64,000 nt of DNA, from the NCBI GenBank assembly GCA_037974965.1, contig JBBPFI010000006.1:1612001-1676000 (forward strand), written 5' to 3'. Positions 2,081 to 33,841 of this stretch are shown in pieces. Origin of the DNA: Dacryopinax spathularia (Eukaryota; Basidiomycota; Dacrymycetes; Dacrymycetales; Dacrymycetaceae). The notes beneath the pieces were generated by a model that worked only from the letters and a program-made list of their open reading frames with translations, searched no databases and was not told the origin of the DNA. The position numbers and the translations under genes are program-made. The number at the start of each line of letters is the position of its first letter. Position 1 is the stretch's first letter.

Positions 2081-2662
2081 GCTGAGATGCTGGCCTGAAT
2101 GGAACGCTGGGAAGAGGCTAACCGACGTGCTGTACCGACGAACAAGTGTACCGCTTGCTGGCGTCCTTTTATCTACCCAAGACACGGACAACTTGGGCAG
2201 GTTCGGCCGATGGATCCAGATATCATGCCCCAACGTTGGCTAGCGACCCCATCCCGCCCTACATCTGCAGCAATGGTACGGAGATTACGTCGGCACGACA
2301 ATCCTATGACAAAGCAGTTCCCAGGAGAGGCGTCTTCCTTCCTATTCCGATGGCGCCAATCGCGACCATCCATCGATCCGTCTTTATGGATATCACATGC
2401 TTTTCTCTGGGGACATTCTGCAAGGTACCCCGATCCGCATATCGTAGTGGGTGAAAGCATCGGAATGCCGATACGCGGTGCGTACCAGGATCCGTAATCG
2501 TTCGCAATGGTTCTCACGAGTGCCGCCGTGCTCGAATGGGAAACCTGTCGAACATCAAGGTCACCTATACACTCCCTCAAGGTATGTGTCAATTGATAAA
2601 GGGGCTAGTCCATCAGCACAGGGTGCGTGCGTGCCACATTACCGAATCAGAAGGATAGCTCT

Positions 2663-4654
2663 TTACACAGAAGTAGCAAACTGCCTGAAATACTCAAAGT
2701 GCTTCCCCATGGATCCGCCCGCCTCATGCGCATCTCGGATCTTACCCCTGACGATCTGCGCCTTTGCGCGCTTCCTGGCCCCCTCCTCACCCTGCGCAGC
2801 AGCAAGCACCTCGTCCATCTCCTTAGCGACCGCTTCGTTCGTACCTGGGATCTCGGTCCCCTCGGGCCCGCCCCGGTACGCTTTACCCTTGACGGGTCCG
2901 TTCCGGACTTGGAGCAGCTCGAAGGCCGTGTCGAGGACTTCGGACATCCAGAGTGCGTGATGGGGTTGGTCGCACGTGAAGGGCCAGGCGATGACGGGCA
3001 CCCCTTGGGTGAGGGACTCGAACGTCCCTCCTCCTCCGCAGTGGGAGACGATCCACCCCAGGCCCTGTTCGTTACATGAGCTGCATTGATCCAAAGATCT
3101 TCGCTTACTCCGACCCACCTCATGCTGCAGAATGGCCTGCTGCGGCGCCCACGGCACAACCAAATGGGTAGCTCATTATGCCGCAGGAAGGCGACGCTGT
3201 TGAGGGAGTCTCGGACTGGTTCGCCGGGACCACGGGACGCAAAGTCCTTTGTCTTGGCCCGCAACTCCCATCCGGCTTCTTCTCAAGAAGCCTTGTGAAA
3301 GACTCCGCTACTCTTGCCAGCACCGAGGTCCGTTTCGATTACCGCCATGAGACAAGGGGTGGTCTCGATAGGCTCGATCCGTGTATCGTTTTCCTGAACA
3401 AGGCACTCGAACAGTATGGTCCGCACTCAGCTGTCTACATCTCGTTCGGAACGACCTTCTTCCCGGAGAGAGAGCATCTCGAAATCCTCTTTCAAAGATT
3501 GCTCGCGCTGAAGGAACCCATGCCGTTCGTATTTGCGGCCGCTTCGCCGTTTGCCCAGCTTTCGGAGACGCTGCTGGGCCAGATCAAGGAGAGCGGAAGG
3601 GGTTTCCACTCCATTTGGATGACCCCGAAGAGACTCACGATGTCAAGCACGGTCGGAAGCATGATGGCGTCCGCACTATTCACAAGGTCCATGCCGACCG
3701 CCACCGAGTCGTAGAAGGACGGCATCCACGTCATCTGGGGCGAATCCTCCCATGCATAGAGTGGTGGCCAGCCCTTGACTCGAATTATATCATCCTTCGT
3801 CCTTGGCCAGGCAGCCCAGAGCTGTGAACATTGTTAGGTCTGTCATAAGGCCAGGAAGATAGACGTACGTCTTGAGCGATACGCGAATACGACCGACCAT
3901 TTGCTCTGTCTGGATTGGCTTCGATTGCCAGGCACTCTTCGACGAAGCCTGGTCCGCGTCCTCCTAACTCATTCGGGCCATAATATCTGCCATATCCTGC
4001 CCTCAGCGCGACTTAAGGAATAGGAAAGTGAAACGTACCTCGTGAAAGAACCGGCACATCCAACATACCACATGCACAGAGGCAACTTGTATTTCCTCTT
4101 GAGCGCGGGCGTGAAGGCTCCTGTCATCATATCGGCAATGATCAAGTTTGGCTTTGGGACAGCAGTCCAGATACGCCCGGCGTCGTCCTCGAACTCTTTC
4201 TCCTCCATCATCACGTCAAAAAATGCGTGTAACCTCTCAACATGGTCGGGCGGCGTATGCGGTGCTATACGTGGGTCGAGCATGGAGTATGAGGCTGCCA
4301 TTTCCGGTGTAAATTTCTCAAGAATACGGCAGAGCCCGATGACCCGTATACGCTTCATGATGCTCTCGTCGCCGCCGAGCGACGCATTCCGCCGGATTTC
4401 GGCTAACGATTTTGAGGCGAAGTCAGCATCGACAACGATCGCTTTCCCACGTCAGTCGTCAGCCAGTATATCAGGATGAGCACAGGACGGAGGACATACA
4501 TATGGTAACGCTCGGGAACTTGCGCGCCAGATTCGCGGCGAGATTAGACTCTGGGCGGAGATGACCTGGACGGAGATCAGGTCCTGCTCTTTCATAGCCA
4601 GGGGAACACCGAACCCCAGGCAAAGCATGCGAAGATCACCCAGTGGGCACTCAT
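2663..4654 (-). pseudogene. UDP-glycosyltransferase UGT-B, disrupted by internal inversion
   Basis: A GT1 gene with the exon layout of its neighbours. It starts at 4654 with MSAHWVIFACFAWG, then [20 protein letters not shown] and an exon with NLIIADMMTGAFTPALKRKY. The next exons carry WPPLYAWEDSPQMTWMPSFY and LPTVLDIV. The C-terminal part on the same strand is VVPWAPQQAILQHE, then [15 protein letters not shown], ending at 2663. The exon that should join them (EGDAVEGV through IKESGRG) lies on the plus strand at about 3187-3607 with its reading frame fully open. The normal transcript therefore lacks the linker and first half of the sugar-donor domain. Everything else, including splice sites, looks preserved, so the event seems recent. 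An assembly error is the main alternative. Confidence 0.85.
3168..3610 (+). other. Inverted exon segment inside UGT-B
   Basis: This 443 bp block reads on the plus strand as UGT coding sequence: an acceptor site (CCGCAG, 3181-3186), then [34 protein letters not shown] and AAASPFAQLSE, ending at IKESGRG. The flanking gene is on the minus strand. The block is bounded by the 8 bp inverted repeat CCAAATGG (3160-3167) and CCATTTGG (3611-3618). One breakpoint falls in the preceding intron. The other falls between IKESGRG and VVPWAPQQ, with about 10 extra bases at that junction. Confidence 0.85.
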
Positions 4655-5263: not shown

Positions 5264-7302
5264 TCAGGCAACAGTAGCAAACTCCTTGAAATAGTCAAGG
5301 TACTTCTCGATCGACCCGTTCTCCTGATGCGCCTCCCAGATCTTCTGCTTGACAATCTGTGCATTCGCGCGCTTCCTCGCCCCCTCCTCACCCTGCGCAG
5401 CAGCAAGCACCTCGTCCATCTCCTTCGCGACCGCTTCGTTCGTCCCTGGGATTTCTGTGCCCTCCGGCCCACCGCGGTACGCTTTACCCTTGACGGGTCC
5501 GTTCCGGACTTGAAGGAGCTCGAAGGCCGTGTCGAGGACTTCGGACATCCAGAGTGCGTGGTGCGGCTGGTCGCACGTGAAGGGCCAAGCGATGACGGGC
5601 ACGCCCTGGGTGAGGGACTCGAACGTCCCTCCGCCTCCGCAGTGGGAGACGATCCATCCCAGGCCCTATGAACCCCCAATCAGTACTCGACATCATTTCC
5701 TAAATGGGGGAAAGGACAGACCTCGTGGCCCAGGATAGCCTGCTGCGGTGCCCAAGGGACGATGAGCCCCCTTCCGCTCTCCTTGATCTGCGCCAACAGC
5801 GCCTCGGGCAGCTGGGCAAACGGACTCGCAGCAGCAAAGATGAACGGCATAGGCTTCTCCAGCCCCAGCAGCCTCTGCAACAAAATGACCACATGTTCCG
5901 GCTTCGGATAAAAAGTCGTCCCGAACGAGATATACAGCGCCGAATGCGGGCCGTATTTCTCCAAGCTGGAGTTGAGGAACGCGATGCACGGATCGACCGC
6001 TTCGGCATCATGTTGCGTTTTGTACCGGTAGTCGAATCGGACTTCGGTGCCGGCGAGGGTGTTGGAGTTCTTCTCGGTGGAGGAGGTGAAGAAGTCTACG
6101 GGGAGCTGGGGGCCGAGACAGAGGACTTTGCGCCCAGCGGGGCCGGAGAACCAGTCGGCGACGCCTTCGACCGCTTCTGCTTCCTGTGCGCGTGCAAACT
6201 ATCAGCAACTTGTTCTGGTACTGTCAGGGTAGGAGGGAGCGGGACGCACGATATCAACCACAGTAGGGAGCATGATCGCATCCGCCGTCTCCACAAGGTC
6301 CATCCCGACAGCCACAGAATCATAGAACGACGGCAGCCAAGTCATCTGCGGCACGTCCTCCCACGCGTAGAACGGCGGCCAGCCCTTGACCCGGATGATG
6401 TTGTCCTCCGTCTTGGGCCATGCGGCCCACAGATCGTGTGCGATCCTGGTGTACGGGCGGCCCTTGGCACGCTCGGGGTCGGCTTCGATCGCCAGGCATT
6501 CTTGGACGAAGCCGGGACCGCGGCCGCCGACTTCGTTCGGGCCGAAGTACCTGCTTGCGTTCAGCCCGGTGCCCCAGAAACACAAGGACGACGATGCAGA
6601 CGGAGAGGAAGGGGTGTGGGGAAGAGCGAGGAAGGGAAGGTACGAACCTGGTGAACGACCCCGCACACCCGACATACCACATCCACATCGGCAGCCCATA
6701 CTTCCTCTTAATCCTCGGGGTAATAGCGCCCATCATCATATCCGATATCACAAAATTCGGCCTCCCCACTCCCTCCGCCGTCCACGTCTTGCCCAGATAG
6801 TCCGTGAACGCCTCGCAGGCCATCATAGCGTCCATCACTTCCAGCGTCCGCTCGAGGTCCTTGGGCTTGACAGCGGCGCCTTCTTCCCGCGGGTCGGCGT
6901 TGGGCAGGTTGATCGCTTTTTCTAGGGTCATCCCTTCCATCGCGTTGCCGATAGCGATGAGGCGGATGCGGGAGAGACAGGATTCGGCGTTGGCGAGCTT
7001 GGCGTTGCGGGTCATTTCGCCTTGGGCTTTGGCGACGAATCCGGCGTCGACGATACAGGCTGCCCATGCCCGCTCATCAGTATATGCCCTCGTACTTGCT
7101 AGTTGGAGGCATGGGAGTACGCACAGATAGTGACATCAGGATACTTGCGAGCCAGCGTAGCAGCAAGGTTCGACTCGGGCCTCAGATGCCCTGCAACATA
7201 TCGTATCAGTTCCTCTCCCTTCCACACCCCTCATTCTCGGGCTAAGAGGAAGAGGGACGCACCCCAGGCATAAGCCATAAAGAAGACCCAATGAGCAGGC
7301 AT
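5264..7302 (-). CDS. UDP-glycosyltransferase UGT-C (GT1 family)
   Basis: An intact sister of UGT-B. The start at 7302 gives MPAHWVFFMAYAWG. The HLRPESNL catalytic-His exon lies around 7130-7195, and the acceptor-side exon has NFVISDMMMGAITPRIKRKY. The next exon runs without interruption from FGPNEVGGRGPGFVQE through RIAHDLWAAWPKTEDN to MLPTVVDIV. At the matching point (AQD/LWAAWP or AHH) UGT-A and UGT-B have an intron, so this gene has lost it precisely. The donor domain reads LYISFGTTFYPKPEH, IVPWAPQQAILGHE and [15 protein letters not shown]; the stop is at 5264. The last exon is almost residue-for-residue that of UGT-B (VLDTAFELLQVRNGPVKGKA), which points to recent duplication or gene conversion. 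Confidence 0.92.
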
Positions 7303-15732: not shown

Positions 15733-16168
15733 CACAATTGCATGATTTCATTCTAATGTATTTAGTTTGCACAATATTTTGTGTGCTTATTTAACTGTAT
15801 ATTACGTGTTTTCTAATCTATTTCGCAATTTGCGCCAAACCCCTACTAATAAGTCCATAATTAAGTCCCCCCCAGGACCCTAACCTGATTTCTCAGCCTG
15901 TCTCTAGCCCGGATGCCGCGCCGGGCATTTTTGCTTCCGCGCCACGTGCATCACAATTGCATGATTTCATTGGTGTTTAGTTTGCACAATATTTTGTGTA
16001 CTTATTTAACTGTATATTATGTGTTTTCTAATTTATTTTGCAATTTGCGCAAACATTTTACCAATAAGTGTATCATTAAGTCCCCCCAGGACCCTAACCC
16101 CTTTTTTCTGCCTGGTCCCTAGCCCGGATGCCGCGCCGGGCGTTTTTGCTTCCGCTGCCACGTGGCGC
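15733..16168. repeat. Tandem duplication of a 219 bp AT-rich unit
   Basis: Unit 1 (15733-15951) and unit 2 (15952-16168) share blocks such as GCATGATTTCATT, TTTAGTTTGCACAATATTTT, AGTCCCCCCAGGACCCTAAC and CCCGGATGCCGCGCCGGGC (a GC-rich hairpin) and end at GCCACGTG. Identity is high but not complete. Position and composition suggest remains of a mobile element, but no coding part is present and the class is unknown. Confidence 0.75.
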
Positions 16169-21889: not shown

Positions 21890-24336
21890 CGCTGCTTTTG
21901 CCCGGAATCAGGAAGGAAGCTGAATCAGTACTTGACCCCGAGTCAAAAACTGCTTTCAGTCGAAACGGCTCAGGGGTATATAGTAATGCAGGATCTGGTG
22001 CTGCGTCTGACTCTGCACACTCATCTGGCTCTGTGGATTTGTCTGCCTCTGCAACAGATGGAGGCGATCTCCCCTCTCATCACAGGAGATGGGGGCAAGG
22101 TATGCAGCCGCAAGGCATGCCAAGCACCCATCCCCCCTGGAGCCAGTTGGCAGACCATTGCCCCGCGAGATGAATTGGGCAACCCCCTGCCACTGCAAGT
22201 TGTCTGTGAGGCCTGTTACCGGCATTACCGCAGCAAGCAGGGCACGATTATGCGCACCATCCCCGTACCTGCAGCAGATTCAATCACTGCCACTGCTGGT
22301 CCATTGGCTGATGCCCCAGTTTCATTGAACTCTGTGGATGTTGCAGGCATTCGCCGTCAGACATCCGAAGCACAGCGAGCACAGTTTCATGGTATGTAAA
22401 CTGCTCAACACCATATGCTGCTGCTGATGCCATTTCGGTAGGTGGCAAGTCACCTGTGCACGCAGTGGGTCATGCCTTTGCCCCAGGCCACTGGTCAGCA
22501 GGACCTATTCCATATTCCAGCCACCAGCCCGTGGCACCCGTGCCTCCGTTTCCAGGCTATCCCAGTGCCCAGCTTGCCGGTCCACCTCATGCAGCCCTCC
22601 CTGCGACCGCCGCACCGAATGTCGCAACTGGGTATAATATCAACCATATGATGTACAGTTACAACTGCCAGCGCGTCAAGAGAGCGATGGGGGGGGCCAA
22701 GGAGGAGCTGATGCGCATCCATGCCTCTGTACAGTATTTGGTTGAGGGCAAGCCTAAACCACGAATGCTTGGGGTGAGTCTGGGTCAGTATGCACTACCG
22801 CTGAATCAGTTGCTGAATCTGCCTCAGAACATCTCCGAAAGGCTCAACAACGTACCAGCCAACCTGCTGCCTGCCCAACTGAAGCAATGGGTCTTTCAAG
22901 GTTTGCATTATCAGATTCAGCGTGACACGCATCAATATCCACTGCAACTGAACGATTTCGACCTTTGCAGCCCTGGCCCAACATACCTGGAGAAACAGCC
23001 TGAGATCGCCCCCTTCTACGAAGACTGCTTCAGAGAGCAGACCAAACACGGCATCACCTCGCGTATATTCAACACCAGTCACCTGGCTGAGGTCATCCTC
23101 ATTGTCAAGAAAGAGGTATGGAGGAAACTTCAACCGTGGATTGAGGAAGCGGTATGTGATCAATGACGGAACGTGCATGATCATGGTTGACTAGTGCACA
23201 GGAAGCTCGTGCCTATGAAGCAGATTGTGCTGCTGCTGAAAAAGCAACAGTAGGCAATGTGCTAGGCCGACCTACTCAGCGGTCTCTGGCCTCGCAGGCA
23301 CCCTCAACTGAATCTGTCCGAGCAGTGAAGTGTCCACCCTCAGTAAGCAGTGCAGTACAGATCCGGGCAAGATGTAGACTGATCCTCTATCAGGAGACCA
23401 TCCATATGCTCTCCCGTTCCAGCCACAGAAGCAAGCGCCAGGGGCTCACAGAGACAGCAGCAAACCCAGCTGAGACGGAGATCCGGGACGCCCTTTTGGC
23501 CTCCAACCATCAGAGGGTGCTGGCAGACAATGGTGCGTGTACTGTACCAGGTGATGCGGTGTCTGAAGCTGATTTCCCTCACAGCCAAGCATTTTACCAA
23601 CCGCGGCCTCTTCCTGCCCATTCCTGTTGTCACCTGGGCTCAACTGATTCTGAATCAGCAACGACTGGTCATTGACTATGAACGTCTAGCTTGCGATGCA
23701 ACTCTGCGAATTGATGAAGCAACCCAGAAGATGTTAGGCCAGCCCGGCACTTTCAAGACGGCTCATCCGGGCCAGCTGACTCTGGCTGAGCATCCTGCTT
23801 TATGGGATGACCTCGCTGAACAGCCATTCCCTGTCGCCCGACGAGTCTCAGTCGCTGCAAAACGCTACTACATTAGAAGCTCTGCTGAAGCCGGTCGTCG
23901 TCTACGTGTTTCAGTCGCTGCTGAATCAGCCTTCCTGGAAAAGGAAGCTAATGTACTCTGCTGGGCAACCGCTCTGCATGAGCTTGCCACCGAGTTTGTG
24001 CATGAATATCGCCTGACCTATCCGGACTCTCCTGCATGCTGGCTGGAGATACCTCAGACACGGATGGTGCATGCTGGCCTCTTCAAGAACAGCAATGACA
24101 ATGGGCCAGAACGTCAAGGGTTGATTCTGCTGATTGAAGAACTGATCACGTCCTCCAAAGGACCCGTGGTATTCACCAAGTTTATAGGGAATGGCAGCGC
24201 AATACCCCTTGACCTGGAAGGTGAAGCCGCTGAGGTTGCTCAGTGGCTGTCATTCTATCAGCATGTCCAGTTCCTGAAGACGGGGGGGCAGGCATACATT
24301 TCCGACTATCAGGGTGAGCAGAAACTGCAACAGTAA
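21823..24336 (+). CDS. Element gene C: large protein of unknown function with Cys pairs
   Basis: A multi-exon frame. Early residues are Ser/Gly/Ala-rich. A cysteine cluster follows at about 22100-22235 (VCSRKACQAPIPPG and VVCEACYRHYRSK, a C-x4-C and a C-x2-C) that could bind zinc. After a short intron ending near 22441 comes a Pro-rich linker, then a structured stretch (YNINHMMYSYNCQRVKRAMG, MLGVSLGQYALPLNQLLNLP, SRIFNTSHLAEVILIVKKEV). The last exon has FLPIPVVTWAQLILNQQRLV and ends near IPLDLEGEAAEVAQWLSFYQ. I do not recognise the family. It overlaps gene B head-to-head at the 5' end, so a shared control region is likely. The start is tentative. Confidence 0.5.
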
Positions 24337-26406: not shown

Positions 26407-28345
26407 ATGCCTCGCCACGTCGTCATCCTGTCCTTTGTTGCTTGGGGTACGTCAGGAATGTTCCTCATATAGAAGCCGCTGATTGCATTTTAGGTCATTT
26501 GCGCCCCGAGTGCAACCTTGCTTTTACGCTCGCCAAGCGTTATTCTGACCTCACGGTTTGTAAGTGCCCTATCGGGTCGGGACGACGCTCCTGCTGACCA
26601 TGTATCACCTTTTTTCATGCAGCCTTCATCGCCGACGTTGATTTCCAAGTCAATGCGCAAGGAGAGATCAATCGGCTTGCCGGCGAGACCGACAAGGAGG
26701 CGGCTGCTCGCGTCCGGGTCATTGCGGGCGGTAACGCCTTGAAGGGCATGACGCCTGCAGTCATGGCAGCGTCCGGCACGCTTAACCCAAAGGACTTCCG
26801 TGCGCCTCCTCCAGACTGCACGCAAGCAGTTGTAAACACCGTCGCCAAGGTCATGACGGGCGAAGACTTCAAAGACGACAATGGTGGTGAATGGAAAGGC
26901 CTCGCAGACAAGCCCACGCTCCTCTTCACCGATATGTTCATGGCCGACGCTTCCCTAGTCATTAAGGAGAAATACAACCTTCCGATCTACCTCGTCTGGC
27001 TCGGATGCGCCGGCGCATGCTCGCGCCTTTTCGCCCCTCTCGCTTTCGGTGGACAGGCCGAAGGATACGTGGAAGAATGCGATGCTATCGAAGCGGATCC
27101 GGCTCGGTCCAAGGGCCGCCCGTTCGTCGATATTGCCAAACAGGTGCGTGGCCCTCAATCTGCCCGCTGCCTCAACTAATCAATTTGTACAGATGTTTGC
27201 CTACTCCGGTCGATACCCCAATGATATTGTCCGAGTGAAAGGCCTCAAGCCGTTCTACGAGTGGGAGGACTTCCCGCAGGACTGGTGGTTGCCGGTCATG
27301 TACTGGTCCATTGCAGGCATATACCCCTTGATAGGAAAGTCGGATGGTATGGTCATACCCACCGTCCAGGAGCTGGTATGTTGCATCAGGGGCCGAGCCA
27401 GCGCATCGTATTCATCAGCTTGCCCAGGACCCAGAAGGTCTGGAAGGGATCAAGGAATGGTACTCCGCAGAGCGATCCCGCCCTGTCCTCCCTATTGGCC
27501 CAATGCTTCCACCCTCCTACCTGGATGCGGCAGGCAGTACAGGCTCAGCGGCCTCGTCGGCGCAGAGCGCAGAAGTTGCCATCTCATATCTTGACGTGAC
27601 TGGACCTGCAGCTCAGACGGTCGACCCATCGCTGGAATTCCTCAATGCGTCACTGGAGAAATACGGCGTCAATTCAGTTCTCTACATCAGTTTCGGAACC
27701 TACTTCGTACCGCGCACGGACCATATTCAGTATCTCTTCGACGTGCTGCTCGGGGTGCAGACGCCGATACCGTTCATCTTCGCCGCCGCATCTCCCATGC
27801 TGCAACTTTCCGAGGAGCTGAAGACGAGAGTCAATGAAAGTGGCCGGGGAATAGTGGTACCGTGGGCGCCGCAGCAATCTGTGCTTCTCCACCCTGTGAG
27901 CTGAGATCTGCCACACCATCCAGGAGCAACGGCTAACTCTATTTCAATTCAGGCAACCAGCTACATCGTCTCTCACTGTGGGGCTGGCGGCTCGATAGAA
28001 GCTCTCACGGCTGGAGTCCCGTTGATTGCGTGGCCGCAGGCAGCTGATCAGCCGCAGAACGCTCGCTGGCTTTCCGAGGTGCTCGACGTTGCCTTCGAGC
28101 TTCTTCAGGTGCGGGCGGGGCCATTCGGCGAAAAGAAGGCTTTCCGGGGTCCGGATACCAAGATCTTGGGCACAGAGGACGCCATTAAGGCGGAGCTCAG
28201 GGACGTACTGTCCAAGCTGAACACCGATGAGGGAAAGAGGAAGCGTGCGAATGCGCAGCATGCGCGCAAGGTTATTCAGGAGGCGAGGAAGGCAGGAGGT
28301 TCGGTTGACCAAAGCTTTGCAGTTCTGGAAAAGGTTATTGGATAG
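26407..28345 (+). CDS. UDP-glycosyltransferase UGT-D (GT1 family)
   Basis: The start at 26407 gives MPRHVVILSFVAWG; the next exon opens with HLRPECNLAFTLAKRYSDL. Exon 3 (from about 26624) runs FIADVDFQVNAQGEINRLAG through TLLFTDMFMADASLVIKEKY to KGRPFVDIAKQ. Then come MFAYSGRYPNDIVRVKGLKP and an exon with VLPIGPMLPPSYLDAAG, LYISFGTYFVPRTDHIQYLF and VVPWAPQQSVLLHP. The last exon begins ATSYIVSHCGAGGSIEALTA and ends FAVLEKVIG. This is a second UGT subfamily: HCGAGG instead of HCGGGG, WPQAADQPQNARWLSEVLDV instead of the WPF..DQPHHALWM type. No break was seen. It converges on UGT-E. Confidence 0.92.
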
Positions 28346-28739
28346 TGACCTTCGGACGTTCATAGTGTGCCATCCAGGGACATATCTCATCAAATGCGGC
28401 CGAAGACAATGCATAATCATGATTGTTGTCCGTGGAGATGCCGGTATTGTGCGATAACACCTACAGGGCCTTGCGGCAATGGAGCATGCGAGAACCACAG
28501 AGGCCGGGGTGCGCTCGGCCAGTGCGGCAGCTGTCCCCTCGCGCACCTCTGTGCTGGGGACAAGCTGGTCCTGATGCATAGGCCCTTCCAACCTAAAGCA
28601 AGACGAGTCACATCGAAACCCACGTTCCACTGCTACAATCGAATAACTCTTTGGTAGCAGGGTATAGTAGAGCGGCTGCACTTCACTTGGGTCGAGCCAC
28701 CAAGGTATCCCTCCACGATCTAGTCTGAAGCAGACCGTA
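28346..28739. other. Convergent 3' spacer, UGT-D and UGT-E
   Basis: A 394 bp region between two convergent stops. Only 3' UTR sequence; no feature seen. Confidence 0.6.
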
Positions 28740-30683
28740 CTATAGAATGGCTTTTCCTAGCGCATCAAAGCTCTGCTCAATCGATCCTCCAGGTCTACCA
28801 GCCTCCTGAATGATGTTCATGACGGCCTGGGCATTCCTTCTTTTCGTCTTGCCCTCCTCACCTGTCATCTTACGCAGCAGGTCCTTCAGTTCGGACTTAA
28901 TGGCCTCCTCCGTACCTATGATCTTCGTCCCTCCGCCGCGGAAGGCTTTCTTCTCGCCAAAGCTGCCGGATCGTACCTGAAGCAACTCGAACGCAACATC
29001 GAGGACTTCTGATAACCAACGAGCGTTCTGTGGCTGATCAGCCGCTTGCGGCCACGCGATGATCGGCAGTCCAGCACAAAGGCTTTCCGTTAACCCGCCG
29101 GCTCCACAATGGGACAAGACGAAGCTGGTTGCCTAGGCAAAGAAACGAGTTAGCTCGCGTGACGTAAATCTCGGCGGTTACGAAGCGTACAGGGTGTAGT
29201 ATGACAGATTGCTGCGGCGCCCAAGGCACAATCTGGCCGAAACCGCTTTCCTGGACGCGTTGCTTGAGATCTTCGGACAAGGTAAGAAGCGGGGAGGCTG
29301 CTGCAAAGAGGAATGGTATTGGTTCCTCCAAGTTCAGAAGCACATCGAAGAGATACCGAATATGGTCGGCACGTGGAACGAAGATGGTACCAAAACTGAT
29401 ATAAAGGACCGACTTCGGGCCATACTTTTGGAGGGCAGCGTTGAGAAAGGCAAGCGATGGGTCCACTTCTCCGTTTACTGGACCGCTCGCATCCAAATAC
29501 GAAATGGCCGCCTCCACGGTTTGCGCAGTCGACGGGGCGGAGACCATATCTTCGGCCGCTTTCAGGTAGGAGGATGGAAGGAGCGGCCCAAGGGGGAGAA
29601 CAGGTCGAGGACGATGAAGGCAGATCCATTCCTTCAGACCTTCCACTCCTTCGCCATCCTGCATGAAGACTCGGGTAAGCATACTAGTCATGGCGGTGCA
29701 GAACGCATACCAGCTCATTGACTGTGGCAACAAGGAAACCGTCTGCCTTCTGCACAAAGGGATATACGCCTGCGATGGACCAATACATCGCAGGTAGCCA
29801 GTAATCTTGCGGGTAGTCTTCCCATTCGTAGCAAGGCGTGAGGCCCTTAACCTGAACGATGTCGTTTGGGTAACGTCCAGAGTAAGCAAACATCTGAAGG
29901 ACGACTTAATATAATGTAATACAACAAGAAAGCGCGGACGTCATACCTGTCTGGCGATATCGACAAAAGCGCGACCGTTTGCACGCTTGGGGTCGGATTC
30001 GATGGCGTCACATTCCTCCACATACCCTTCAGCTTGCCCACCGCAGGCTAACGGCCCATAGAGTCGACCAAAGGCCCCGGCACAACCAACCCAGAGAATA
30101 TATGCCGGAATGTTGTACTGATTCTTGATTGGCAATGCGGCATCAGCCATAAACATGTCCGAGATGAGAAGGCTGGGCTTCTGCATGATCCCCTTCCACA
30201 GCTCGCCGTTTTCGTCCGTGAAGTCTTTTCCAGACATGATCTTCGCGACCACCGCCAAAACTGCTTTGGTAGACTCGGGCGAGGGGGAGCGGTGATCCTT
30301 CGGGTTGAGCGTACCGGCAACCGCCAGCATAACCTGAGGCGTGAATCCTTTCAGAGCGTTACCGGCCGCGATAATACGGACACGCTCGAGTACAATCTTA
30401 TCGGTGTCGTCGGCAACCCGGCTGAGCTCGCCTTTGGCGTTAGCTTGGAAGCCCGTATCCACTATGAGAGCTGTACATGCGTAGCCGTGAGCGACATTTG
30501 AGGGAGATGTTTGCCGACTCACAGACTGTGAGATCGGAGAATCGCTTTGCAAGCCGAAAGGCAAGATTGCATTCAGGACGAAGGTGACCTGTCCGCAGAA
30601 TCAACTCATAAGCCTGGTTATTGGATAGAGACGGAAAGCGTACCCCATGCAACAAATGAGAGAATAAGAACATGGCGAGGCAT
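28740..30683 (-). CDS. UDP-glycosyltransferase UGT-E (GT1 family)
   Basis: The start at 30683 gives MPRHVLILSFVAWG, then HLRPECNLAFRLAKRFSDLT. The acceptor-side exon has SLLISDMFMADAALPIKNQY and GRAFVDIARQ. After an intron come MFAYSGRYPNDIVQVKGLTP and MYWSIAGVYPFVQKADGFLV. The donor domain reads LYISFGTIFVPRADHIRYLF, IVPWAPQQSVILHP and LSHCGAGGLTESLCAG, ending FDALGKAIL at 28740. The intron layout matches UGT-D and UGT-F. It is divergent from UGT-F (1.2 kb between starts), giving a convergent then divergent trio typical of duplication with local inversion. It looks intact. Confidence 0.92.
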
Positions 30684-31883
30684 GATCGCAGTCCAGGAGC
30701 GATACTACGTGTTAGGGAGGATGTGACTTTCGGCAATCCACCCTCAGTTGAGATACTGTCGTCTATATACGTAGCGAAGACAGATGAGGACGGGGCAGCG
30801 CAATTCATACTCTTCATGCTAAGGCGTCAAGGTGCCCATGAGTCGGTCAAGAAGAGACCGCTCGGCGATGGCAGTACACCGACCTCACAACATTCCATGG
30901 TACACAATTTCTCCGGCTCGGCGTCCATTTGGTGTTGACACGTTGGCTGACGGAAGGGTACCCATGCTCAAAACCACCTGGCAACATCAAGTCGACCTGA
31001 GCCTTAATGATTGCGAGTGGAAAGATCATTACAACTTCATTGTTTGCGACGCCGAATGAACCTGATAGGACGGACTCATACGGGATGTGAGAGTGAGACG
31101 CAGTTTTAGTGATGTGTTCAACCTGTTCAAATTGATAAGATATCAGACCCTTGAGGCGGTGTTCGCGGGGCAAATGGGCGGCATCCATGTTAGGATGCAT
31201 GGATCCCCTGTCCTTGGTACCCGGGAACCTTATCTTATGGCTTCCGCGAAAAGATCCTTACGCTGAGCCTTCCTTTCCGCCAACTCTATAGCAGTCTGCG
31301 GCCTATGCTCTCCGGTTGCCACACTACCTCGTCCTCAAGGATCTACGAACAAGACATTCAATAGACACCCATGAGAGCCGATTTGGAATTCCGACACGAG
31401 CTCGCCAGAAGTGATTGTTCAACGTGTATGAAGTATGGCAGGGGCCGCTCATCTCCGTCAGCTTCTCCTTGCACCAACTCGGCGTTCCCACGCTCTTACG
31501 GCTAGCCAGATCCCCAGAGAATGCTATCTGCTCCTCATCCCCTTCTCCTTGTCATCAAGATGACATAACTCTGTGCTTGCGAAGGAACGTGCACCTCTAC
31601 TGCATTTTGTATGCTACTCTCCTCGAATCTGGCCGAGTAAGAGAACTTCCACTGGCTGTGCAAGATAGTCCGACCGAGTGAAGGTAACCAGCGACTATAA
31701 CAGTAGTGCGATACCAAGTGATATGATGGTCCGCCCATTCAAACCCGAAAAACCGCTGTTGTTTTCACACCCTTTGGCTGACTGAATGACCAAGCTGGAA
31801 GATACTTAGGTACAGTGTCAACCGCTTGGCATCCACCCGCGCGCTGACCTTGTTTACCGGTAGCTCTCTCGATCATCTGTTCC
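30684..31883. other. Divergent promoter region, UGT-E and UGT-F
   Basis: 1.2 kb between divergent start codons. Short frames are present but none resembles a protein family. No tandem repeat was seen. Confidence 0.5.
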
Positions 31884-33841
31884 ATGCCGCATCACATACT
31901 CATTCTTTCCTTTCTTGCTTGGGGTATGTAGCTGATCGTCCAATTTACATGTTGCTCTCACTGACTTCGTTCAGGTCACCTGCGTCCGGAATGCAATCTC
32001 GCGGTCATGCTAGCGGAGAGATGTGGCGATCTCACAGTCTGTGAGCAGATGGCGCTTGTTCGCTGCACTCAGGAAGTCTGATCTTCCTATAAACCAGCGT
32101 TCATAGTGGATACGGACTTCCAGGTCAATGCTCAGGGCGAGATCAACCGTGCAGCTGGCAATCATGAGAAAGACGCTCTGGAACGCATTCGAGTCATCTC
32201 TGCCGGCCATGCTCTCAAGGGTATTGGCCCCCAAATCAAGATGGCGGCGCTCGGGACGCTCGATCCCCGGGAGCACCTTCCAGTACCCCCTGATAGCGCA
32301 CGGGCTGTTCGCGAGGTCGTCCACAAGATCATGGACGGCGAGAACTTCGTCGACGAGAACGGTAGATGGTGGGAAGGCCTTGCCCAAAAGCCCGATCTGG
32401 TCATTTGTGATATGTTCATGGCTGAGATCGCACTCATCGTTAAGGAGCAATATCACGTTACCTCGTATTTCCTTTGGGCGGGCTGTGCTGGCGCATTTGG
32501 ACGGCTCTATGGATCAGTGGCTCTTGGGGGACAGGCTGAAGGATACGTTGAGGCATGCGATAGAATTGAGGCCGATCCGGATCTCGCCAAGGGCCGGACG
32601 TTCGCCGATATCTCGAAACAGGCAGGTGGTGGATTGCTCGATCAGGCATGCCGGAGCGCTCAACTTCTCATCCAGGTGTATGCATATTCCGGTCGTTATA
32701 CGAATGACGTCGTGAAGGTGAAGGGTCTTCGGCCCTTCTACGAGTGGGAAGACTTCCCTCAGAACTACTGGCCACCTGGATTCTACTGGACCATTGCAGG
32801 CGCATACCCGTTCATCCAGAAGGCAGACGGCATTCTGATCCCTTCGATTGAGGAACTGGTGCGTAGGGATTGCCTGGCTTGCGACTCCAGCTGATGAGGC
32901 GTATATTAGGACGCGGAGGGCTTCGAAGGGATCAGAGAATGGTGCTGTGGGGATCGCTCCTGCGCGGTTCTTGCCATAGGACCCCTCCTGTCATCTTCGT
33001 ACCTTGACTCTGCCGCGGCAACCGATTCAGTGGAGCTATCCGACCGTAGTGCGGAACTTGCGGTTTCGTATGTGGATGCGACAGGTCCAAACTCTAGAGA
33101 CATTGACCTGTCTCTCGACTTCCTCAGCGCATCGCTGAGGAGATACGGCGCCGGCACTGTCCTCTACATCAGCTTCGGTACCATCTTCGCTCCGCAGGCG
33201 AACCACATTCGTTATCTATTCGAAGTTCTGCTCGAGATGGAGGTACCTATTCCTTTCCTTTTCGCAGCTGCATCGCCTATCCTCGAATTGTCCGACGACC
33301 TAAAAAAGCGCGTCGAGGAGAGTCGCCGAGGGTTGATTGTAGACTGGGCACCGCAGCAATCCGTAATCCTTCATCCCGTGAGCTCGTTATGCCGTTTCAA
33401 GGTCGACTAGCTGCTGAATTGCCTCTCCTGACGTAGGCAACCGGCTTTGTGATGTCACACTGCGGTGCTGGCGGCGCCACCGAAAGTCTGTGTGCGGGTG
33501 TGCCAATCATTGCCTGGCCGCAAGGTGCCGATCAGCCTAGGAATGCTCGTTGGCTATCCGAAGTACTAGATGTCGCGTTCGAGCTGCTGCAAGTCCGGAT
33601 TTGCACGTTCGGAGAAGCGAAGGCATTCCGCGGCGGCGGCACGCAGATCATCGGCACCGAGGAAGCCATTAAGAACGAGCTTCGGGACGTCCTGGCAAAG
33701 ACGAGGGGTGAGGAGGGGCAAGCAAAGAGAGCCAATGCGCGAGAGGCGAGGAGGATCATCCAGGAAGCAAGGAAGCCTGGGGGCTCAATCGATCGCAACT
33801 TCGGCCAGCTGCTGCAGGTCATCGGCCATAGCGACACGTAG
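31884..33841 (+). CDS. UDP-glycosyltransferase UGT-F (GT1 family)
   Basis: The start at 31884 gives MPHHILILSFLAWG, then HLRPECNLAVMLAERCGDL. Exon 3 has FIVDTDFQVNAQGEINRAAG, LVICDMFMAEIALIVKEQY and GRTFADISKQ. At the point where UGT-D and UGT-E have an intron, a 54 bp stretch (32620-32673) begins GC and ends AG and keeps the frame, so it may be spliced as a GC-AG intron or read as 18 extra residues. The gene continues YAYSGRYTNDVVKVKGLRPF, LYISFGTIFAPQANHIRYLF, IVDWAPQQSVILHP (Asp where paralogues have Pro) and MSHCGAGGATESLCAG, and ends QVIGHSDT. The VDWAPQQ change sits in the sugar-donor motif. Confidence 0.88.

Follow-up and report, generated by a model that had tools for sequence, protein, structure and literature searches.

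UGT-B, one of six UGT-like genes (A, B, C, D, E and F) present in pieces in a 64,000-nucleotide stretch of Dacryopinax spathularia DNA (the window), reads from the minus strand except for most of its exon 6, which reads from the plus strand. This raises the questions of whether the exon was turned around in the genome itself, by which route that could have occurred, and whether the gene still works. The inversion is present in the sequence as given. The reading favored here, with a probability of roughly 0.8, is that the assembly is correct and that UGT-B is a young pseudogene, in which a stretch of the gene's own exon was inverted by faulty repair.

Gene Organization

The window has a GC content of 55% and introns of about 50 bp. 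Its UGT-like genes, and the parts of UGT-B as located by translations and TBLASTN with exon borders refined by sequence reading, are as follows:

within 0–7.3 kb, minus strand: UGT-A, UGT-B and UGT-C
about 27.0–28.3 kb, plus strand: UGT-D
30.1–28.8 kb, minus strand: UGT-E
32.1–33.8 kb, plus strand: UGT-F
5267–7302, minus strand: UGT-C, a colinear, intact-looking paralog used as the yardstick for UGT-B (BLASTN, translation)
2663–4654, minus strand: UGT-B gene body
4654–4615, minus strand: UGT-B exon 1
4565–4500, minus strand: UGT-B exon 2
4441–4039, minus strand: UGT-B exon 3
3986–3869, minus strand: UGT-B exon 4
3821–3639, minus strand: UGT-B exon 5
about 3119–3163, minus strand: last codons of UGT-B exon 6, left in place (translation, TBLASTN)
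3064–2663, minus strand: UGT-B exon 7

UGT-C reads colinearly in six exons, to which the exons of UGT-B correspond with the exception of exon 6; one UGT-C exon region is split in UGT-B by an extra intron. Exon 7 of UGT-B and that of UGT-C match the Pfam family UDPGT (PF00201) with 20.7 and 20.9 bits, respectively (curated cut-off 19.5). Exon 6 of UGT-A scores 17.1 bits against the same family, which is under the cut-off, and the exon 6 pieces of UGT-B and UGT-C, when scanned alone, give no PF00201 match.

Intron 4 of UGT-B (3822–3868) is apparently also present in UGT-A and is absent from UGT-C. Farther along the window, UGT-D (plus), UGT-E (minus) and UGT-F (plus) lie in mixed orientation across 27020–33802.

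Identity of the Reversed Segment

The region of the inversion comprises the following elements:

3162–3605, plus strand: inverted segment, consisting of the 3' part of intron 5 and exon 6 codons 1–139
3619–3638, minus strand: donor side of intron 5, left in place (GTGAGT from 3638)
3160–3167: left copy of an 8-bp block, CCAAATGG, exact
3611–3618: right copy of the block, CCATTTGG, the reverse complement of the left copy and directly adjoining the donor side of intron 5
3606–3610: 5-bp filler CCACT at the right junction, part of neither side (sequence reading)

The first-pass annotation had described a 443-bp inversion of one exon. The inversion itself stands, but it does not take in the whole exon: only the intron tail and codons 1–139, out of a total of about 154, are flipped. 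The 443 bp separate the 8-bp arms (3168–3610), the flipped segment being about 440 bp long. Exon 6 codons 1–139 occupy 3187–3603 on the plus strand and codons 140–153 occupy 3163–3122 on the minus strand; the left edge of the segment is ambiguous (about 3159 to 3164) because of microhomology. Other elements of that description agree with the present results. The flipped piece has an open frame, with no stop in 3187–3603. The acceptor of exon 6 is intact (CAG, 3184–3186) and is carried, together with the intron tail up to 3186, inside the flipped piece. The rest of UGT-B keeps its splice sites, the donor upstream of exon 6 (GTGAGT from 3638) being in place.

The alignment with UGT-C, which had been suggested as a check, finds this neighbor colinear and codons 1–139 of UGT-B alone reversed. 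The only opposite-strand BLASTN match between the two genes pairs plus-strand 3184–3602 with UGT-C 6186–5768 (69% over 419 bp, E 2e-46). Same-strand matches are found at 2672–3066 (exon 7), 3112–3157 (end of exon 6), 3632–3821 (exon 5), 3873–3990 (exon 4), 4033–4133 (part of exon 3) and 4489–4568 (exon 2); exon 1 and the greater part of exon 3 lack a BLASTN match to UGT-C and are recognised by translation. TBLASTN with UGT-C exon 6 places residues 1–144 at 3187–3618 on the plus strand (68%, E 1e-66), where the part beyond residue 139 is junction sequence, and residues 140–153 at 3163–3122 on the minus strand (86%, E 8e-4).

Codons 139 and 140 abut across the break, with none missing and none doubled. 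The two halves of intron 5 (donor 28 nt, acceptor 27 nt) add up to 55 nt, or 47 nt when the 8-bp block is counted once, and the other five introns of UGT-B measure 47–58 nt. Because the codons adjoin and the intron halves sum to a normal length, the flipped piece would most simply be the own exon of UGT-B. Its amino acid identity is 70% with UGT-C versus 49% with UGT-A, and exons 4, 5 and 7 are likewise closer to UGT-C. The locus thus has the features of an intragenic microinversion, namely a short reversed segment with colinear flanks that is probably made of the gene's own sequence, as judged by codon fit and intron length.

Junctions and Proposed Origin

Each copy of the 8-bp block passes into intron 5 sequence, the right one into its donor half and the left one into its acceptor half, which suggests that a single intronic block is now present in two copies. 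The block is seen at both junctions, and a single ancestral copy would follow from the frame argument. The first five bases of the left copy double as resident exon 6 sequence of the minus strand, constituting a 5-bp microhomology (sequence reading). The 8-bp inverted repeats had been taken to bound the segment. The repeats do exist, but they are more likely to be a product of the inversion, i.e., a duplicated intron block, than repeats that bounded the segment beforehand. When 20000 random interval pairs are drawn from the window (intervals 37 bp and 39 bp long, with starts separated by 450 bp), 259 contain an inverted match of at least 8 bp, so that the arms are only mildly unusual and their presence is not decisive. 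In the 1.8 kb around the inversion there are 21 inverted pairs of at least 8 nt, and the longest inverted pair within 2600–4400 is a 21-nt imperfect palindrome.

The 8-bp duplication, the 5-bp microhomology and the 5-bp filler are consistent with the simple repair-type origin put forward in the first-pass annotation, which had also noticed a few filler bases at one junction; these are the five at the right side. Starting from a working, tandemly placed UGT-B gene, one break would have occurred in intron 5 and another after codon 139 of exon 6, and the intervening fragment of about 440 bp would have been rejoined in the wrong orientation. Fill-in of a staggered break in the intron might have left the 8-bp block at both junctions; alternatively, a copying polymerase that switched templates twice with a small overlap could have produced the same arrangement. 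The left junction could have exploited the 5-bp inverted microhomology that exon and intron share, and the right junction would have gained the five filler bases. Staggered-break joining and template switching both fit the junctions and are not told apart by them.

Alternative Explanations

An assembly or consensus error, with the exon colinear in the real genome, is an unlikely explanation. Local misassembly could affect a segment of 440 bp, and the absence of stops elsewhere in UGT-B would suit a gene that is in fact intact. However, the window contains no N, and with the 21-nt palindrome as the longest inverted pair there is no long repeat that could prompt an assembler to flip the segment. 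In addition, an 8-bp duplication accompanied by five filler bases is a signature of repair, and assemblers do not normally add such features.

The flipped piece might instead have been copied from a different UGT paralog or allele and inserted in place of the own exon of UGT-B. The paralogs seem to exchange sequence, as indicated by a tract in exon 7 shared with UGT-C and by an exon 3 closer to UGT-A (see below), but it would then be a coincidence that codons 139 and 140, like the intron halves, fit each other exactly, and this explanation is very improbable. Nor is there a close donor within the window: the best matches are those to UGT-C (419 bp at 69%) and UGT-A (101 bp at 69%), and further window matches of the flipped piece are limited to 44 bp at 75% (E 0.024) and 39 bp at 74% (E 0.29).

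The first-pass annotation had raised the possibility that the segment switches orientation. A reversible switch at the 8-bp arms, like that of bacterial phase variation, would suit the inverted repeats at the junctions and the open flipped frame; yet a flip between the arms does not yield a working state, as it puts 11 extra bases between codons 139 and 140 and thereby shifts the frame, and TBLASTN finds no extra residues there in any of the five other UGT genes of the window (A, C, D, E and F), so that this proposal has a negligible probability. Recombination at the arms would accordingly not link the present state to a working gene, and as they stand the arms are not a programmed invertible element. 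Known recombinase sites are longer than these arms, and the 15 window pieces scanned with Pfam, which are far from a full annotation, include no recombinase match.

Age of the Inversion and Selective Constraint

Several features bear on when UGT-B, read here as a young pseudogene, would have lost its function. The eight exon pieces of UGT-B contain no stops in their own reading frames apart from the final one; neither stops nor frameshifts of the kind that mark a decayed pseudogene are found in the coding pieces, and the inversion is the sole defect seen. In exon 7, the tract 2768–3064 (UGT-C 5369–5665; 297 bp) differs from UGT-C by 19 synonymous and 0 nonsynonymous substitutions (dS 0.32). 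The tract is 94% identical between the two genes, whereas the other compared pieces are 55–78% identical, and dS is 2.0 in exon 5, 1.9 in the flipped piece, and saturated or not computable in exons 2, 3 and 4 and the end of exon 6 (exon 1 being left out of the comparison). Gene conversion between UGT-B and UGT-C best accounts for the tract, which we infer to be older than the inversion.

If both genes were neutral, the chance of 0 nonsynonymous changes among 19 would be 2e-12; this indicates that constraint acted on UGT-B during most of the period after the conversion. The absence of nonsynonymous differences in the tract, combined with the absence of stops, gives a 95% bound of 0.011 per site on the neutral divergence since loss of function, a value that leans on the exon 7 tract. 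The bound is 0.0075 when indels are included at an assumed rate of one per ten substitutions, 0.05 from stops alone and 0.014 from stops and assumed indels.

These data agree with the recent age proposed in the first-pass annotation, and the inversion is likely, but not proven, to be recent. The last 34 codons of UGT-B (2666–2767, 102 bp) fit less well: unlike the rest of exon 7, they show dN 0.31 and dS 0.49 relative to UGT-C, with 8 residues unique to UGT-B versus 3 unique to UGT-C (n = 29). Exon 5 has 2 versus 0 such residues (n = 61), exon 6 has 7 versus 11 (n = 139) and exon 3 has 13 versus 35 (n = 133). The last 34 codons and exon 5 would fit an older relaxation of constraint, whereas exons 6 and 3 do not. 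The counts in exon 3 reflect the likeness of UGT-B to UGT-A in that exon, for which UGT-C is a poor yardstick.

UGT-B is a mosaic in that exon 3 (4039–4441) shares 64% of its amino acids with UGT-A versus 48% with UGT-C, and exons 4–7 are closer to UGT-C. A common origin of the inversion and the exon 7 tract in one event is unlikely: the 19 synonymous and 0 amino acid differences suggest that the tract predates the loss of function, and the tract ends about 100 bp from the break.

Predicted Consequences for the Gene

In the unspliced reading, exon 5 extends for 48 codons and then meets a stop, and the predicted protein would thus be devoid of exon 7, which bears the UDPGT match. As far as can be judged from the sequence, the inversion probably killed UGT-B. 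Skipping of the flipped part is unlikely to yield a working product, as splicing at 3136–3139 would cost about 150 residues and require an intron about 10 times the normal length. The enlarged intron (about 500 bp) contains 37 AG dinucleotides, of which three, at 3139, 3136 and 3124, are in phase 0.

The inversion also creates the following open frame:

3178–3714, plus strand: 179-aa frame comprising flipped exon 6 and the antisense of exon 5

Nothing in the sequence suggests that this frame is in use. Transcription of the flipped allele would yield an antisense RNA covering about 417 nt of the exon in its intact form. The idea that the flipped allele could thereby silence an intact UGT-B partner by RNA interference, should the strain carry one in a dikaryon or acquire one by mating, such that one inversion brings about a dominant loss, is highly speculative and has only a slim chance of being correct.

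Relation to Known Inversions

The UGT-B event is of a known kind, intragenic microinversion, and is notable for its coding-sequence target and its readable junctions. Drosophila microinversions described in and near genes include similarly small, intragenic ones; that survey reports 143 inversions, of which none overlaps a host-gene exon and 7 overlap an exon belonging to a nested or overlapping gene, whereas the UGT-B inversion reverses host coding sequence (PMC1779558). The same report states that a general sequence signature was not found at the edges of the Drosophila microinversions (PMC1779558). Human–chimpanzee microinversions, which measure 17–33 nt and are for the most part exact, are described as having short inverted repeats of 3–75 nt at their edges and are attributed to template switching or microhomology-mediated break-induced replication (PMC8755829). 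The UGT-B event shares the short edge repeats with these, but is about 440 bp long and has filler at one junction. In the account given for Drosophila subobscura, chromosomal inversions formed through staggered breaks leave inverted duplications (PMC5080602). The presence of a block at both junctions of the inverted arrangement is common to these and UGT-B, although the UGT-B block is 8 bp long and would derive from only one of the two breaks.

Inverted exons are also reported in human disease genes, namely PRKN (PMC8421701) and in Rotor syndrome (PMC7005217), and as in those cases an exon is inverted and the gene affected in UGT-B. The Rotor syndrome case is described as accompanied by a LINE-1 insertion (PMC7005217), whereas no mobile element was recognised at the UGT-B junction, a statement made without a dedicated search. 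Among the literature matches listed, as represented by titles and abstract beginnings, none describes a fungal intragenic exon inversion, which is no proof of absence.

UGT-B is a well-preserved case in which inversion of coding sequence has probably killed a gene, with both junctions readable and a rough bound on its age. Inversions of this kind are easily overlooked, since the exon may just be omitted by a gene predictor. UGT-B illustrates short-range repair signatures in a fungal genome and leaves the general view unchanged.

Other Features of the Window

A tRNA scan of the window gave no tRNA. Relatives were sought with UGT-C exon 6 in viral_contigs (33 pattern stretches) and with UGT-C exon 7 in genome_contigs, which covers bacteria and archaea only (52 stretches); none of these stretches was confirmed. 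An open reading frame resembling an aspartic protease had no match among PDB sequences that would point to an organism. The open reading frame at 23383–24336 has a weak alpha-kinase match of 19.5 bits, under the curated cut-off of 21.3. At 15733–16164, a 215-bp unit is present in two tandem copies that match at 86%.
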